Below, one piece after another: positions 5,947 through 10,831 of a DNA stretch of 64,000 nt. This stretch comes from Dolosigranulum savutiense (lineage in GTDB: Bacteria > Bacillota > Bacilli > Lactobacillales > Carnobacteriaceae_A), in the NCBI RefSeq assembly GCF_039830095.1, contig NZ_CP142435.1:1860001-1924000 (forward strand), given 5' to 3'. Below the pieces are notes generated by a model, which had not been told where the DNA came from, did not search any database, and saw only the letters and a list, made by a program, of their open reading frames with translations. The position numbers and the translations under genes are program-made. Numbering within the stretch: the stretch's first letter is position 1; each line of letters starts with the position of its first letter.

Positions 5947-5988
5947 GAGCCAATAGTCTTAGAAATATTAAAATCCTAAAAAAATTAA

Positions 5989-6017
5989 TTGACATTTTAA
6001 TATAAGCAGTGTACTAT
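5989..6017 (+). promoter_or_regulatory. Promoter of the trpXYZ leader
   Basis: A consensus TTGACA (5989-5994), a 17-base spacer, and TACTAT (6012-6017). Transcription would start near 6024, leaving a leader of about 270 nt before trpX. Confidence 0.75.
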
Positions 6018-6050
6018 TGAGGTATACAAAAAAAGAAATGGGGAGACACG

Positions 6051-6119
6051 ATGTTGATCGGACAAGCTAAACAATTAAATAGAATGCGTTGGCAAAGCCG
6101 TATAGATGCTGTGTCTTGA
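6051..6119 (+). CDS. Putative Trp-containing leader peptide of the trpXYZ operon
   Basis: A 22-codon reading frame (ATG 6051, TGA 6117) with a clear ribosome binding site, GGGGAG at 6040-6045, five bases before the ATG. It carries a single Trp codon (codon 14, 6090-6092) in the context Arg-Met-Arg-Trp-Gln-Ser-Arg. It ends 17 bases before the strand that can pair with the second terminator. Position before a tryptophan-type transporter and two terminators suggests a translated attenuator peptide. Translation and Trp sensing are inference. Confidence 0.55.
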   Translation: MLIGQAKQLNRMRWQSRIDAVS

Positions 6120-6189
6120 GTTTTGACGTAGATGCAGCCATTCATTCAATTGAAGGGATGTATCTATGGGGTGAGTATTAACATGTTCG

Positions 6190-6220
6190 ACCGCATGGAT
6201 CATAGCGTCTGTGCGGTTTT
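6190..6220 (+). terminator. First leader terminator before trpXYZ
   Basis: ACCGCA (6190-6195) pairs with TGCGGT (6212-6217), followed by TTT and a further T-rich tract (6224-6232). Confidence 0.6.
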
Positions 6221-6233
6221 CTATATTTTTTTA

Positions 6234-6264
6234 GGCAACCGTAGATGAATGGTTGTCTTTTTTT
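6234..6264 (+). terminator. Second leader terminator before trpXYZ
   Basis: GGCAACC (6234-6240) pairs with GGTTGTC (6251-6257) around a 10-base loop, followed by T7 (6258-6264), only 28 bases before the trpX start codon. A terminator placed here makes sense only if it is conditional. Confidence 0.75.
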
Positions 6265-6292
6265 GTATAAAAAATATAGAAAGAGTGATGTT

Positions 6293-7267
6293 ATGAAGAA
6301 AGTGTTTCGAGTAATTGCGGTATTGTTGGTGCTAGTTGGTGGGGCCATCTTTATTGAGGAACGTGGCTCAATTGAAGATCGTCTGCCAACTGTTGGGTTA
6401 CTACAATTGGTTAGTCATCCTGCACTCGATGATATTAAGAAAGGGACGATTGATGCTTTAGCGGAAGAAGGATTCATAGACGGAGAGTCAATGACATTAT
6501 TATTCCAAAATGCAGAAGGGGACCAAAATAACTTAAGTACGATGTCGCAAATGTTTGTGCGAGAAGATGCAGATGTTATGATCGGAATTGCCACGCCTGC
6601 TGTCCAAGCACTGGCTAATGCATCAACAAATATTCCGATTGTGATGGGAGCAGTGACTGACCCGGTAAATGCTGGGTTGATTGAGGACTTAGAGCACCCT
6701 GGAGGCAATATTTCTGGTATTTCTGACCGAACGCCGATCAAAGAACAGCTCGATTTAATTCAAGAAATTTTACCCGATGTAGAGAAGATCGGGATCATTT
6801 ATTCAACTGCTGAAGATAATTCAAGGAAACAAAGTGAACAGGCGGCGGAATATATGCAATCTATTGGGATAGAGCCAGTAGTTGCAACAATTAGTTCAAC
6901 TAATGATTTATCACAAGTTGCGACACAATTATTAACTCAAGTAGATGCGGTTTGGGTGGGGACGGACAATATGATTGCTAGTGCCTTTCCGACCTTAGTA
7001 GAGATAGCAAATCGTACAAAGAAGCCTATTTTTCCGGTAGTGGATACGATGGTAGAGCAGGGAGGATTGGCAACACTGGGCCTTAATCAATATAATCTGG
7101 GGTATCTTACGGGAAAAATGGCTGCTCGTGTCTTGCGTGGTGAAGAAATTGGACAACTCCCGGTTGAGTTTCCCAGTGAATTGGACTTAATTGTTAATGA
7201 AGCACAGGCGAATAAACTAGGCATTCATTTGCCGGATACCGTGCATGAAAAAGTGAAAGGAGAATAA
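6293..7267 (+). CDS. trpX: TrpX-like ABC transporter substrate-binding protein
   Basis: A 324-aa periplasmic-binding-type protein of the ABC_sub_bind family (PF04392). The mature part begins with VGLLQLVSHPALDDI and carries IATPAVQALA and GAVTDPVNAGL, closely resembling streptococcal TrpX of the putative tryptophan transporter TrpXYZ. An N-terminal hydrophobic segment (about 4-22) has no lipobox Cys, so the protein is either membrane-tethered or cleaved, unlike typical Gram-positive binding lipoproteins. The start at ATG 6293 follows AGAAAGAG (6278-6285). The permease follows one base after the stop. Tryptophan as substrate is inferred from family likeness. Confidence 0.85.
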   Translation: MKKVFRVIAVLLVLVGGAIFIEERGSIEDRLPTVGLLQLVSHPALDDIKKGTIDALAEEGFIDGESMTLLFQNAEGDQNNLSTMSQMFVREDADVMIGIATPAVQALANASTNIPIVMGAVTDPVNAGLIEDLEHPGGNISGISDRTPIKEQLDLIQEILPDVEKIGIIYSTAEDNSRKQSEQAAEYMQSIGIEPVVATISSTNDLSQVATQLLTQVDAVWVGTDNMIASAFPTLVEIANRTKKPIFPVVDTMVEQGGLATLGLNQYNLGYLTGKMAARVLRGEEIGQLPVEFPSELDLIVNEAQANKLGIHLPDTVHEKVKGE

Positions 7268-7268
7268 G

Positions 7269-8156
7269 ATGAACTTAATTATTGTATCTGTAGCAGAAGG
7301 CATCTTGTGGGGAGTCATGGCACTCGGCTTATTTATTTCTTTTCGTATCTTAAATATAGCTGATTTAACGATGGAAGGAACTTTTCCCCTCGGAGCAAGT
7401 GTAGCAGCAGTTTTAATTACTAGCGGATTAAATCCTTATTATGCCACTTTAATCGCACTGATGGCCGGGATGATGGGGGGATTAATTACGGGCTTGCTCA
7501 TTACAAAAGGCGGTATTCAACCCCTCTTGGCTGGAATTCTAACCATGACTGGACTGTATTCAATTAATTTACGTGTGATGGGGCAATCAAATATTAGTCT
7601 CTTAAATCAACCGCGTGTAACGTCACTGACAGGCATGAATGACTATTATAGCTCAATAATAATAGGAGTGATTCTCTTAATTTTCTTTATTGTTATATTA
7701 TATGCCTTCTTCTTATCCGATTATGGACAAGCTTTGATTGCGACTGGAGATAACGAGCGAATGGCTATTTCATTGGGTATTCGGACACATCAGATGAAAA
7801 TAACGGGCTTGATGTTGTCTAATGGATTAGTGGCGCTATCCGGTGCTTTAATTGCACAGCATAATGGCTACGCAGATATTAGTATGGGTATTGGGACCAT
7901 TGTTATTGCGCTAGCGTCCGTGATGATTGCTGAAGTCACGATGAGCAATATTGCTTTCTTACCACGCTTAATATCGCTACCTTTAGGGGCTATTATCTAT
8001 CGACTCATTATTTCTGGTGCCCTTTCGCTAGGTTTAAATCCTAATGATTTAAAATTAGTTTCAGCCGTCCTGTTAGCTCTTATTATGGTCATACCAACAA
8101 TGTGGAATCAATACGGCATTCAGCTTTCGATATATTGTCAGGAGGAACAAAAATGA
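7269..8156 (+). CDS. trpY: TrpY-like ABC transporter permease
   Basis: A 295-aa polytopic membrane protein of the branched-chain/sugar-type permease family (BPD_transp_2), with about eight to nine hydrophobic segments and the NIADLTMEG block near residue 28 seen in this permease group. It lies between the binding protein and the ATPase; its TGA overlaps the trpZ ATG (ATGA), so the two are translationally coupled. Confidence 0.87.
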   Translation: MNLIIVSVAEGILWGVMALGLFISFRILNIADLTMEGTFPLGASVAAVLITSGLNPYYATLIALMAGMMGGLITGLLITKGGIQPLLAGILTMTGLYSINLRVMGQSNISLLNQPRVTSLTGMNDYYSSIIIGVILLIFFIVILYAFFLSDYGQALIATGDNERMAISLGIRTHQMKITGLMLSNGLVALSGALIAQHNGYADISMGIGTIVIALASVMIAEVTMSNIAFLPRLISLPLGAIIYRLIISGALSLGLNPNDLKLVSAVLLALIMVIPTMWNQYGIQLSIYCQEEQK

Positions 8157-8962
8157 AAAAGCAGCCCATTTTAAGTTTAACTAACATCAGTAAAAGCTTT
8201 CATGTTGGAACAGTGAACGAAAATCCTGTCATCAACTCACTCGATCTTGCTGTTTATCCGGGTGATTTTATAACAATTGTCGGAGGAAATGGTGCCGGGA
8301 AGTCAACATTACTCAATGTTATTTCAGGAAATTTAATGCCAGATTCAGGCGATATTCAATTAGGTGGTCAAGTACTAACACATCACTCCGAACAACAACG
8401 AGCAACAAAGATGGCACGGGTTTTTCAAGATCCAACTATGGGAACGGCACCGCGCATGACTATTGCTGAAAATTTACGAATTGCTGCCTTACGTGGACAA
8501 AAACGAGGCTTGCACTTTGGGATGAATCAAGCAGTGCGGCAGCAGTTCAAAATCTTAGTCGCCTCGCTACAATTGGGTTTAGAAGATAAGTTAGATACAG
8601 AAGTACAATACCTTTCAGGTGGGCAGCGTCAAGCAATCGCCTTGTTAATGGCAACAATTCAAACACCAGAAATCTTGCTTCTTGATGAACATACTGCCGC
8701 ACTAGATCCACAAGTCGCCCATACTGTGATGGAGCTGACTAATGAACGGATTACATCAGAAGGCATCACTGCTTTAATGATTACTCATAATTTAAGCGAT
8801 GCTATCCAATACGGGAATCGTCTCATTATGTTGCAACGTGGAAAGATTGTTCTTGATCTTTCAGGACAAGATAAAGCTGCCCTTACTAGCGAAGAATTGC
8901 TAATGTATTTTAAACAACATGTTTCTCGTACTGATTTGTCAGATAGTTTACTTCTATCCTAA
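8153..8962 (+). CDS. trpZ: TrpZ-like ABC transporter ATP-binding protein
   Basis: A 269-aa ATPase with Walker A GGNGAGKST (about residue 43), signature LSGGQRQA (about 157), and Walker B LLLDEH followed by the D-loop AALD. Start at ATG 8153, preceded by GGAGG (8141-8145); a longer frame from 8102 would run deep into trpY and has no ribosome binding site. It powers import through TrpY. Confidence 0.9.
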   Translation: MKKQPILSLTNISKSFHVGTVNENPVINSLDLAVYPGDFITIVGGNGAGKSTLLNVISGNLMPDSGDIQLGGQVLTHHSEQQRATKMARVFQDPTMGTAPRMTIAENLRIAALRGQKRGLHFGMNQAVRQQFKILVASLQLGLEDKLDTEVQYLSGGQRQAIALLMATIQTPEILLLDEHTAALDPQVAHTVMELTNERITSEGITALMITHNLSDAIQYGNRLIMLQRGKIVLDLSGQDKAALTSEELLMYFKQHVSRTDLSDSLLLS

Positions 8963-9122: not shown

Positions 9123-9563
9123 ATGAGTCAGACAGTCTACACAACCTATTGGATTAATAAACGTGATAATGTACGTAAAGAACACGGCACCTATAAGAGC
9201 GAGGAAGCGGCAAAAGAGGCTATAATTGCTTGGTGGGAAATTAACGGTGAAAATTATGACTATGAAGCATACCGAACTAATACAGGAGCCTTAGAAATTT
9301 CTTACATCGATGAATTTTCTTTCTATCGCATTGAAAAAGAAGAAACCGATGAGCCGTTACCATCCACCAGTTACAAGTTACGGACAAGTGGAGAAATCGA
9401 AGCCAAACGCCAGCAACTTAGCTTAGGCGAGCATACGATGCTATTTGACGAATTAGCAGAACCGCACCGTGACCGTCTTATTCAAGCAATGGGAAGTGCT
9501 AAACAAGCACGCCAGTTCGTGTACACCAAAGACGGTCAATTGATTAAAGATATCAATCACTAG
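9123..9563 (+). CDS. Conserved-looking protein of unknown function
   Basis: A 146-aa soluble protein I do not recognise. The N-terminal 70 residues form an alternating pattern typical of a small alpha/beta fold (YTTYWINKRDN, AIIAWWEINGENY, ISYIDEFSFYRI). The C-terminal half is charged and helical. There is no signal peptide or membrane segment. The start at 9123 is chosen because GGGGA (9113-9117) serves it, while ATG 9111 overlaps that site. It has its own promoter and stands alone before thiM. Confidence 0.7.
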   Translation: MSQTVYTTYWINKRDNVRKEHGTYKSEEAAKEAIIAWWEINGENYDYEAYRTNTGALEISYIDEFSFYRIEKEETDEPLPSTSYKLRTSGEIEAKRQQLSLGEHTMLFDELAEPHRDRLIQAMGSAKQARQFVYTKDGQLIKDINH

Positions 9564-9674: not shown

Positions 9675-10508
9675 ATGGTCAGTGAATTGAAACAAGAAAT
9701 TATGCAATGTGTTCGAGATGTGAAAGCGAATAATCCCATGGTTGGATCTGTTACAAATACGGTAACAATTAATTTTGTAGCAAATACTCAAATTGCAGTG
9801 GGCGGCTCAGCATCTTGTGTATATATGCCGGATGAAGCAGAAACACTTGTAGAAAAAGGTGACTCATTTTACATTAACTTAGGGACAATTTTACCTATTT
9901 ATGAGGATACGCTTCCACAAGCGGGTCGATTACTGTCAGATACCCATAAAAATTGGGTGCTTGATCCAGTTGCAGTCGGCATTGGATCATTGCGTACACG
10001 GTTATTACGACAATTTAACGCATATAAGCCTACAATTATTAAAGGAAATGCCTCTGAAATCTTAGCTTTAGCTGGACTTTGGGGCTTAGAAGGTGGGCAA
10101 GCTGCTTCAAAAGTTCGTGGAGTTGATTCAACCGAACTTGTCGAAGAAGCAACAGAAGCAGCCAAATCAATTGCTGAACATACAGAGGGTGTTTGTGTCG
10201 TCTCTGGTGAAGAAGATTTACTAACAGATGGACGTCGTGTTGTTCGTGTTAAAGGTGGGCATGAAGCATTAGCCAATATTACCGGATCAGGTTGTGCACT
10301 TGGTGGAGTGATTGCTATTTATGCTACTCAAGTGGATGATCCATTCGTTGCAGCACTGACTGGTTTACAAATCTTTAAAAAGGCGGCTGAGAAAGCGGCT
10401 GAGGCGAGTGAAGGACCAGGCACATTCCAAGCTAAATTCTTAGACTTCTTGCATAACTTAACGCCAGAAGAAATTGCTGAAAATGAGTTTGAGCTGGTGG
10501 AGGAGTAA
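9675..10508 (+). CDS. thiM: Hydroxyethylthiazole kinase
   Basis: A 277-aa ribokinase-fold enzyme that phosphorylates 4-methyl-5-hydroxyethylthiazole in thiamine salvage. Visible are the N-terminal NPMVGSVTNTVTINFVAN block, LDPVAVG, the KGNASEI segment and the C-terminal TGSGCALGG anion hole with the conserved Cys. AAGGAG (9656-9661) precedes ATG 9675. No TPP riboswitch was found upstream. The next gene starts two bases after the stop and encodes a thiamine-binding protein, which supports the assignment. Confidence 0.9.
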   Translation: MVSELKQEIMQCVRDVKANNPMVGSVTNTVTINFVANTQIAVGGSASCVYMPDEAETLVEKGDSFYINLGTILPIYEDTLPQAGRLLSDTHKNWVLDPVAVGIGSLRTRLLRQFNAYKPTIIKGNASEILALAGLWGLEGGQAASKVRGVDSTELVEEATEAAKSIAEHTEGVCVVSGEEDLLTDGRRVVRVKGGHEALANITGSGCALGGVIAIYATQVDDPFVAALTGLQIFKKAAEKAAEASEGPGTFQAKFLDFLHNLTPEEIAENEFELVEE

Positions 10509-10510
10509 AT

Positions 10511-10831
10511 ATGTCAGATATGAATACATTAGTAGCGGTGTCCATTGCCCCAATTGCTAGTCAAGAAGAACTAGCTCCACAAATTGCTGAAGTTATTCGA
10601 GTGATTCGCTCATCACACTTACCTAACCAAACTTATTCCATGTTTACTGAAATTGAAGGACCATGGGATGAAGTGATGGCGATTGTGAAAGAAGCGACAC
10701 AAGTATTAACTGATCGAGGTATTCGGACAATTGTAAATGTAAAAGCCGATGTTCGTCCAGGTCATTCTGGGACAATGAAGCGAAAAGTCGAAAAAGTTAA
10801 TCGTATTTTAAATGAAGAATCAGCAAAATAA
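10511..10831 (+). CDS. Thiamine-binding protein, MTH1187/YqgV family
   Basis: A 106-aa ferredoxin-like-fold protein of the PF01910 family (VAVSIAPIA near the N-terminus, a long second helix, KADVRPGHSGTMKRKVEKV near the C-terminus). Members bind thiamine or its pyrimidine moiety. It is directly coupled to thiM, so a role in handling thiamine precursors is likely. Confidence 0.85.
   Translation: MSDMNTLVAVSIAPIASQEELAPQIAEVIRVIRSSHLPNQTYSMFTEIEGPWDEVMAIVKEATQVLTDRGIRTIVNVKADVRPGHSGTMKRKVEKVNRILNEESAK

Follow-up and report, generated by a model that had tools for sequence, protein, structure and literature searches.

The leader upstream of the trpXYZ operon of Dolosigranulum savutiense very probably acts as a ribosome-mediated transcription attenuator, whose specificity would be set by the codons at or beside the 5′ strand of a three-way junction in the predicted RNA. 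Three computational observations carry this reading: a leader frame kept among relatives, a match between its regulatory codons and the downstream gene, and the co-adaptation of the two strands of each alternative helix. Translation of the leader, ribosome stalling, the direction of the response and its kinetics are what we infer. The finding would add a widespread translation-sensing attenuator to the Lactobacillales, an order in which amino acid genes are often controlled by T-boxes. Such T-box control is stated for histidine in the accessible text of PMC9413887.

The trpXYZ leader and its predicted parts

The D. savutiense genome is a single contig of 1.98 Mb, of which we analysed a stretch of 64,000 nucleotides (the window; positions 1,860,001 to 1,924,000 of NZ_CP142435.1). 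The operon and the parts of its leader are listed below in window coordinates, with the basis of each assignment in brackets.

5989..6017, + strand: promoter-like site TTGACA-17-TACTAT (10 of 12 matches; count not above shuffles)
6040..6045, + strand: Shine-Dalgarno sequence GGGGAG of the leader ORF (sequence)
6051..6119, + strand: leader ORF of 22 codons, MLIGQAKQLNRMRWQSRIDAVS (sequence; in-frame ORF also in relatives)
6090..6092, + strand: regulatory Trp codon (UGG), presumed stall position (alignment and position scan)
6097..6107, + strand: segment a, 5′ strand of P1 within the ORF (predicted fold; P1 covariation)
6108..6116, + strand: segment a′, 5′ strand of P2, with 6130–6138 as partner (predicted fold, covariation, pairing tests)
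6127..6138, + strand: segment b (Rfam-model match, covariation, pairing tests, predicted fold)
6139..6160, + strand: P3 hairpin of the three-way junction (predicted fold, covariation)
6160..6173, + strand: segment c, GTATCTATGGGGTG (common to P1, the b:c hairpin and the antiterminator)
6189..6202, + strand: segment d, able to form either the 5′ arm of the first terminator or the antiterminator with c (predicted pairing)
6206..6219, + strand: segment e, 3′ arm of the first terminator (predicted pairing)
6232..6259, + strand: second terminator (terminator scan, predicted pairing)
6293..7267, + strand: trpX, tryptophan ABC transporter substrate-binding protein (NF041285, 421.6 bits, cut-off 390)
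7269..8156, + strand: permease, trpY-like (BPD_transp_2)
8147..8962, + strand: ATPase, trpZ-like (ABC_tran)

The 22-codon frame with its ribosome-binding site and one Trp codon (6090–6092) is as the preliminary description, made from the letters of the window, had presented it; a single Trp codon is few for an attenuator and counts against our reading. Both of the tandem terminators proposed there were also recovered (6189–6218 and 6233–6258), where 0.3 such hairpins were expected. Its consensus promoter is present at 5989–6017, but promoter-like sites were no commoner than chance (1 found versus 1.8 expected in shuffles).

In the predicted fold, P1 joins 6097–6099 to 6170–6172 and 6101–6107 to 6162–6168. 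Segment b can serve two helices, with 6130–6138 forming the 3′ strand of P2 and 6127–6135 able to pair with 6160–6168 in c; the latter helix is P1 of the Rfam model discussed below (window coordinates assigned by eye). The predicted energies are −17.8 kcal/mol for the first terminator (d:e) and −14.4 kcal/mol for the antiterminator (c:d), and the 5′ arm of the second terminator (6232–6243) can pair with e and its tail (6212–6223) at −11.2 kcal/mol. Beyond the operon, an ORF of 145 amino acids (9126–9560) without a Pfam or NCBIfam match at E 0.001 sits between trpZ and a hydroxyethylthiazole-kinase/thiamine-binding-protein pair (9675–10831).

In the proposed mechanism, when Trp-tRNA is ample or no ribosome is present, a:c (P1), a′:b (P2) and P3 would close the junction; d would then pair with e, the second terminator would form, and transcription would end. 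A ribosome at the stop codon would cover both a and a′, leaving b to pair with c, and termination would follow again. When charged Trp-tRNA is scarce, the ribosome would halt at the UGG codon and cover a but not a′, so that P2 would retain b while c would be free to pair with d; e would be released to pair with the 5′ arm of the second terminator, and the polymerase would enter trpXYZ. A rise in expression on starvation that depends on translation of the leader would be expected of such an attenuator.

Distribution of the leader and the match between codons and genes

TrpX homologues were found in 23 of the 27 genomes of the window's family and, at E 1e-60, in 337 of the 395 genomes of the order. 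A simple pattern, which asked for a W or Y/F motif at the end of a short ORF upstream of the gene, matched 51 of 56 loci (L031 and L033–L087), and paralogous transporter genes (approximately 42% identical) carried this RNA too, with Y and F codons at the corresponding place (e.g., ..QLNHFYFSYFRYCL). The pattern-negative loci were L041, L050, L052, L053, and L060, among which L050 and L060 were later recovered by a covariance model. Direct DNA similarity yielded mostly short AT-rich matches, and two of the four loci read from it (G003 and G090) showed the conserved leader.

The covariance model, R1, was built from 46 leaders; it begins immediately upstream of the Trp codon and extends as far as segment c. 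It contains the codon columns and therefore favours W- and Y-type codons, while the openness of the ORF and the identity of the downstream gene lie outside it. The window, itself a member of the training set, was found at E 2.8e-7. Among 100 loci, R1 gave 96 matches, of which three antisense ones were removed, leaving 93 in 93 loci (46 of them the training leaders); seven loci that had been fetched as trpX-like (L041, L052, L053, L112, L115, L123, and L125) gave no match. Antisense matches, three in this set and seven in the further set described below, were discarded because the junction is nearly palindromic. At least one match at E 0.001 was present in 287 of the 395 genomes of the order Lactobacillales, representing 66 of 80 genera; in a class sample, 36 of 398 genomes had matches. 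Three genomes of the class sample with matches lay outside the order, with convincing elements in G403 (Y/F) and G423 (His); the match in G730 (L171) was taken as false, as it had no such ORF. In a phylum sample, 3 of 329 genomes had matches, all in the order and one being the window's own. Several genomes had two to five matches, the highest counts including antisense readings.

Outside the training set, we retrieved 40 further elements from the better-scoring order-wide hits, a choice that is not a random draw and includes some near copies of earlier leaders (e.g., L201 of L096 and L205 of L104). Extra copies were read at 25 of 30 loci from eight genomes; among the weak matches there, L241 had no ORF, and L234 and L242 had no convincing one. 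L231, a truncated locus read out of register, contains the element already known as L050.

A frame passing through the Trp-codon column with a start and a stop was found in 93 of 93 elements, the window included, and in 40 of 40 further ones. When a Shine-Dalgarno-like string was also required, the frame was retained in 127 of the 133, versus 0 and 4 of 133 for the other two frames, so that the elements have the putative leader ORF, with start, ribosome-binding site and stop, that attenuation calls for. The preliminary description had staked its reading on the frame being conserved in relatives, which it is. Many leaders, although not all, share a recurrent Q/K-L-N stretch that lies one to three codons upstream of the regulatory one (6051–6089 in the window, and relatives).

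The 93 matches comprised 58 W, 34 Y/F and 1 His leaders. All 56 W leaders with a downstream CDS preceded a protein closer to TrpX than to its paralogue, and all 26 Y/F leaders of transporters preceded a protein closer to the paralogue (the reference being included in both counts). The NF041285 cut-off was passed by the three W-leader proteins tested and failed by the six Y/F-leader proteins. In the remaining 8 Y/F cases the downstream genes were aroE, then DAHP synthase and aroB, and in the single His case (L097) a hisZ-like gene, then hisG and hisD. Regarding these assignments, aroE was above the cut-off for L157, DAHP synthase was confirmed for L162, hisZ was the best family but below its cut-off, and aroB, hisG and hisD were recognised by eye. 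The 40 further elements comprised 32 W leaders before TrpX (L213, ..SFSWQTWRR, being counted as W by eye), 4 W leaders before trpB (family matches for L188, L191 and L199; L192 by its near-identical start), 2 Y/F leaders before the paralogue and 2 Y/F leaders before aroE. Among the extra copies, Y/F leaders preceded a 3-dehydroquinate-synthase-like protein and, at L224 (G010) and L225 (G316), solute-binding proteins of family 3 (PF00497) that are unrelated to TrpX. At L245 (G151), a leader combining codons for Tyr, Trp and Phe (..SQYWFSYFRESL) preceded a gene whose product passes the NF005588 cut-off as a class I/II aminotransferase. Only a few loci were read for the contexts with DAHP synthase, aroB or the aminotransferase.

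The leaders thus carry codons of an amino acid related to the gene that follows. The constant Trp codon that the preliminary description had put forward for checking holds before trpX and trpB and gives way to Tyr/Phe or His codons before other genes. In a tree of 62 proteins, the W and Y/F transporter clades were separated by one branch (support 100/100), which means that the 82 transporter matches (56 W and 26 Y/F) amount to approximately one evolutionary event. Named TrpX relatives are Lactobacillaceae and a Streptococcus, and the Lactobacillaceae lie in the tree among other members of the order. The independent evidence is the occurrence of fitting codons before unrelated genes (trpB, aroE, hisZ-like, and aminotransferase).

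Because the codons seem to set the specificity, such leaders predict the substrates of uncharacterised transporters, and the TrpX paralogues behind Y/F leaders are probably Tyr/Phe importers. In genome G010, the leaders of two TrpX-like paralogues (L050 and L060) differ, one being rich in Tyr (FFHYYYGYYR) and the other in Phe (FFFFSFFRYSL); these are possibly separate Tyr and Phe importers. Four W leaders with a terminator (L090, L094, L172 in G040, and L173 in G053) had no same-strand CDS of >100 amino acids within approximately 3 kb, and they may be attenuators left behind after gene loss, given that the very similar L199 (G060, same genus) precedes trpB.

These results also bear on two readings that the preliminary description had offered beside attenuation, an arrest peptide and an RNA sensor; both are disfavoured by codons that follow the downstream gene and by an N-terminal peptide without codon-position bias. 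A TnaC-like ligand-induced arrest peptide, in which free tryptophan rather than uncharged tRNA would stall the nascent WQS peptide, is unlikely. It would account for the single Trp of the window leader and for the recurrence of the Q/K-L-N and WQS/WQN residues, but differences between 60 pairs of similar leaders upstream of the regulatory codons were spread evenly over the three codon positions (138/126/146), the spacing from LN to W varies by whole codons, LN is missing in many members, and W and the residues following it vary with the gene, with Y/F and His versions in existence. Furthermore, the useful signal for an importer would be starvation rather than excess. A frame that is kept while its N-terminal peptide sequence is not points more to a leader peptide than to an arrest peptide.

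Still less probable, and in our estimate very improbable, is a metabolite-binding riboswitch in which the RNA itself would sense tryptophan or another aromatic compound. This is how the related trpB motif (RF04312) was first classified, Narunsky et al. 2024 having published it among their strong riboswitch candidates (PMC11109978), and the strong covariation, the three-way junction and the string TGGCAAAGC, the commonest at the Trp codon in W leaders, would suit such a sensor. However, the start-to-stop frame runs through the 5′ strand of the junction in every one of the 93 and the 40 elements, the bases at the regulatory codons follow the downstream gene, UGG before some genes being replaced by UAC/UAU/UUC or His codons before others, and, in our own reading of the alignment, no conserved aptamer core is left once codons and helices are discounted. 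The recurrence of the same RNA frame across lactic acid bacteria, with codons suiting other genes, makes the catalogued candidate riboswitch more likely a translation-sensing switch.

Competing helices and the position of the ribosome

In the alignment of 46 leaders, 87.2% of the cells of the three-way junction pair, and 22 of its 29 pairs vary on both sides; the corresponding values for the b:c hairpin with P3 were 92.2% and 10 of 14, and none of 500 shuffles was as good for either structure. The b:c helix alone showed 98.1% pairing, with 5 of 9 pairs varying on both sides. Covariation extends into the codon itself, as its base columns 20 and 21 covary with c: opposite UGG, c mostly reads CCG, CUG, CGG or UCG, opposite CAA it reads UUG, and opposite UAU it reads AUG.

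We also compared each helix formed by a leader's own strands with helices formed by swapped partners (64 non-redundant leaders, 2000 permutations), after leaving out near-identical leaders and two leaders without a proper terminator partner (L090 and L094). On average, own partners scored better in every helix, with 0 of 2000 permutations as good: −12.07 versus −8.51 for a:c, −8.06 versus −4.67 for a′:b′, −8.69 versus −7.88 for b:c (where only 8 of the 64 leaders did better than their own median swapped partner), and −17.34 versus −11.19 for d:e. As d had been picked as the best partner of c, the antiterminator was tested in a way that avoids this bias, with c set against the downstream region (−13.65 versus −12.03, 0 of 2000 permutations). 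The second terminator was present in 44 of the 64 leaders, and pairing of e and its tail with the 5′ arm of that terminator scored −11.02 versus −7.77 (44 leaders, 0 of 2000 permutations), or −10.64 versus −7.55 when e was cut before the terminator and the window excluded (43 leaders, 0 of 2000). Together with the covariation, these comparisons support a predicted three-way junction that includes the codon strand, a hairpin competing with it, an antiterminator, and a relay that reaches the second terminator.

The preliminary description had drawn the antiterminator elsewhere, between 6136–6146 and 6244–6254. This complementarity is present by eye, and the regions containing both segments form a strong duplex in the window itself (−15.6 kcal/mol), but in 43 other leaders own pairs barely beat swapped ones (−7.61 versus −6.97, with 30 of 2000 permutations as good), and only 3 of the 43 reached −12 or below. 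We dropped this pairing, which has little probability of being the antiterminator; the conserved alternatives are c (6160–6173) with d (6189–6202) and then 6212–6223 with 6232–6243. Covariation, which the preliminary description had named as a check, was borne out for the junction and b:c helices; its own antiterminator is, by the swapped-pair test, largely specific to the window. Overall, that description had pointed to a real regulator and guessed its mechanism correctly: the frame, the fit between codons and genes, and the pairing tests give strong support to ribosome-mediated attenuation instead of a T-box.

To model the consequence of ribosome position, we placed the A site at a chosen codon, folded the RNA that lay downstream of the ribosome as far as the end of d, and summed the c:d pairing; the scan is an equilibrium model, while actual attenuation is kinetic. 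For 38 W leaders, the median predicted antiterminator rose from 0.10 without a ribosome to 0.96 with the A site on the Trp codon, and was 0.84 for the second-Trp position and 0.24 for the stop codon; further upstream, over codons −7 to −4, the medians (0.33–0.48) were not low. For 25 Y/F leaders, the medians were 0.01 without a ribosome, 0.95 and 0.96 at the first and second regulatory positions, 0.33 at the stop codon, and 0.01 at codons −7 to −4. In W leaders, the mean for Trp codons was 0.85, compared with 0.50 for the other codons scanned and 0.26 for the stop codon; in Y/F leaders, the mean for regulatory codons was 0.79, compared with 0.37 both for the other codons scanned and for the stop codon; random choices of codons reached the regulatory-codon mean in 0 of 5000 trials. 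Shifting the ribosome edge over 10–16 bases left the Trp-codon peak at 0.93–0.96, and the second-Trp value dropped to 0.36 at 16.

Under strict thresholds, 41 of the 64 leaders switched cleanly. Twenty others exceeded 0.5 at codons −1 to +3, yet were also at least 0.5 with the ribosome absent or on the stop codon. The last three (L118, L141 and L097, the His leader) stayed below 0.5 at codons −1 to +3, the His leader attaining at most 0.09 at any scanned position. The window leader is among the 20, with 0.24 without a ribosome (0.42 with a few extra upstream bases), 0.65–0.91 at the seven codons preceding the Trp codon, 0.92–0.99 at the Trp codon and the next two, and 0.75 at the stop codon. 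In the family, terminator and antiterminator are predicted to be mutually exclusive and set by the ribosome's position; in this equilibrium scan, the element of the window itself behaves only in part like a switch.

Relation to catalogued RNAs and known attenuators

An Rfam scan of the whole 64 kb gave no family at its gathering score, T-box included. A T-box that reads uncharged tRNA-Trp directly, as reported for trpXYZ of Streptococcus suis (PMC9382623), has next to no probability here despite the UGGC string in the leader, as its defining core, whose absence had been noted from the start, and its stem I specifier are lacking: no T-box was among the five Rfam matches down to E 5 in 5980–6300, and a regular expression for the core matched nowhere in the upstream regions of loci L031–L087.

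The window leader matched RF04312 (trpB ncRNA motif) at 36.7 bits and E 0.00096, below the cut-off of 59, and is a divergent, sub-threshold match whose predicted architecture is shared with that family. Among 17 relatives searched, L042 (63.4) and L034 (61.0) were above the cut-off, and over 348 Bacilli genomes there were 10 matches above it, all 10 with a W leader directly upstream. Among 10 weaker matches, 7 had a leader of the W, Y/F or His type; the other 3 (L102, L103, and L105) lacked one. As RF04312 contains no codon columns, this comparison is independent of R1. The b:c hairpin, the subsequent d:e terminator and a transporter gene or trpB downstream are common to the motif and the window element, whereas the RF04312 model begins at b and so omits the leader ORF, segment a, P2 and the codon-set specificity; moreover, it was proposed as a riboswitch, and we read the window element as a ribosome-mediated attenuator.

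The motif has >900 representatives in Firmicutes and Fusobacteria and is listed as an orphan without a known ligand, and its authors allowed that a protein factor might be involved or that the RNA might be a classic attenuator (PMC11109978). Beyond that remark, no leader-peptide reading of the trpB motif was found in the accessible portions of the open-licence PubMed Central literature. The attenuator reading is a proposed answer to the ligand question of the motif and suggests that a search for a small-molecule ligand would fail.

A second family, RF02863 (sRNA_2410), covered the Y/F leaders L051, L054, L058 and L059 at 52.8–60.7 bits (cut-off 61). It is catalogued as an Enterococcus sRNA, whereas the matching stretch here is the leader of a Y/F-type transporter operon; instead of being a free sRNA, the RNA may represent a leader transcript that ended at the terminator. 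We find it fairly probable that the orphan riboswitch class and the annotated sRNA family are one programmable attenuator chassis, in which a three-way-junction RNA reads aminoacyl-tRNA supply via the ribosome. Its specificity for Trp, Tyr/Phe, Tyr-Trp-Phe or His would be obtained by codon exchange, with c changed to match, and it would serve several gene families that are unrelated to one another, for the most part within one order, being ON only in a narrow stall window that masks a and not a′.

Regarding other known systems, the streptococcal Trp T-box regulates a like operon in response to a like signal, the charging of Trp-tRNA, but is a different RNA that reads the tRNA directly, without translation (PMC9382623). 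The motif uORFC-13-1, described in PMC8632094 together with other uORF motifs, is a proposed Phe-containing uORF with a terminator before aroF (DAHP synthase) in Acholeplasma; it likewise combines an amino acid uORF with a terminator, and in the accessible text of that study its reported occurrence is limited to Acholeplasma and environmental sequences. In Firmicutes, his genes preceded by His-rich leader peptides have been described; the accessible parts of those reports draw no link from these peptides to the trpB motif, nor to leaders of the Trp and Tyr/Phe types (PMC9413887, PMC2965389). The His leader found here (L097) is probably of that histidine-attenuator kind.

The his and trp attenuators of Enterobacteria consist of a leader peptide with regulatory codons, chained alternative hairpins, and a final terminator. 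The window element likewise has regulatory codons in a putative leader peptide, alternative hairpins and a terminator at its end, a likeness of architecture. In contrast to those attenuators, the codon strand here is predicted to be one arm of a three-way junction, and many members would relay to a second terminator.
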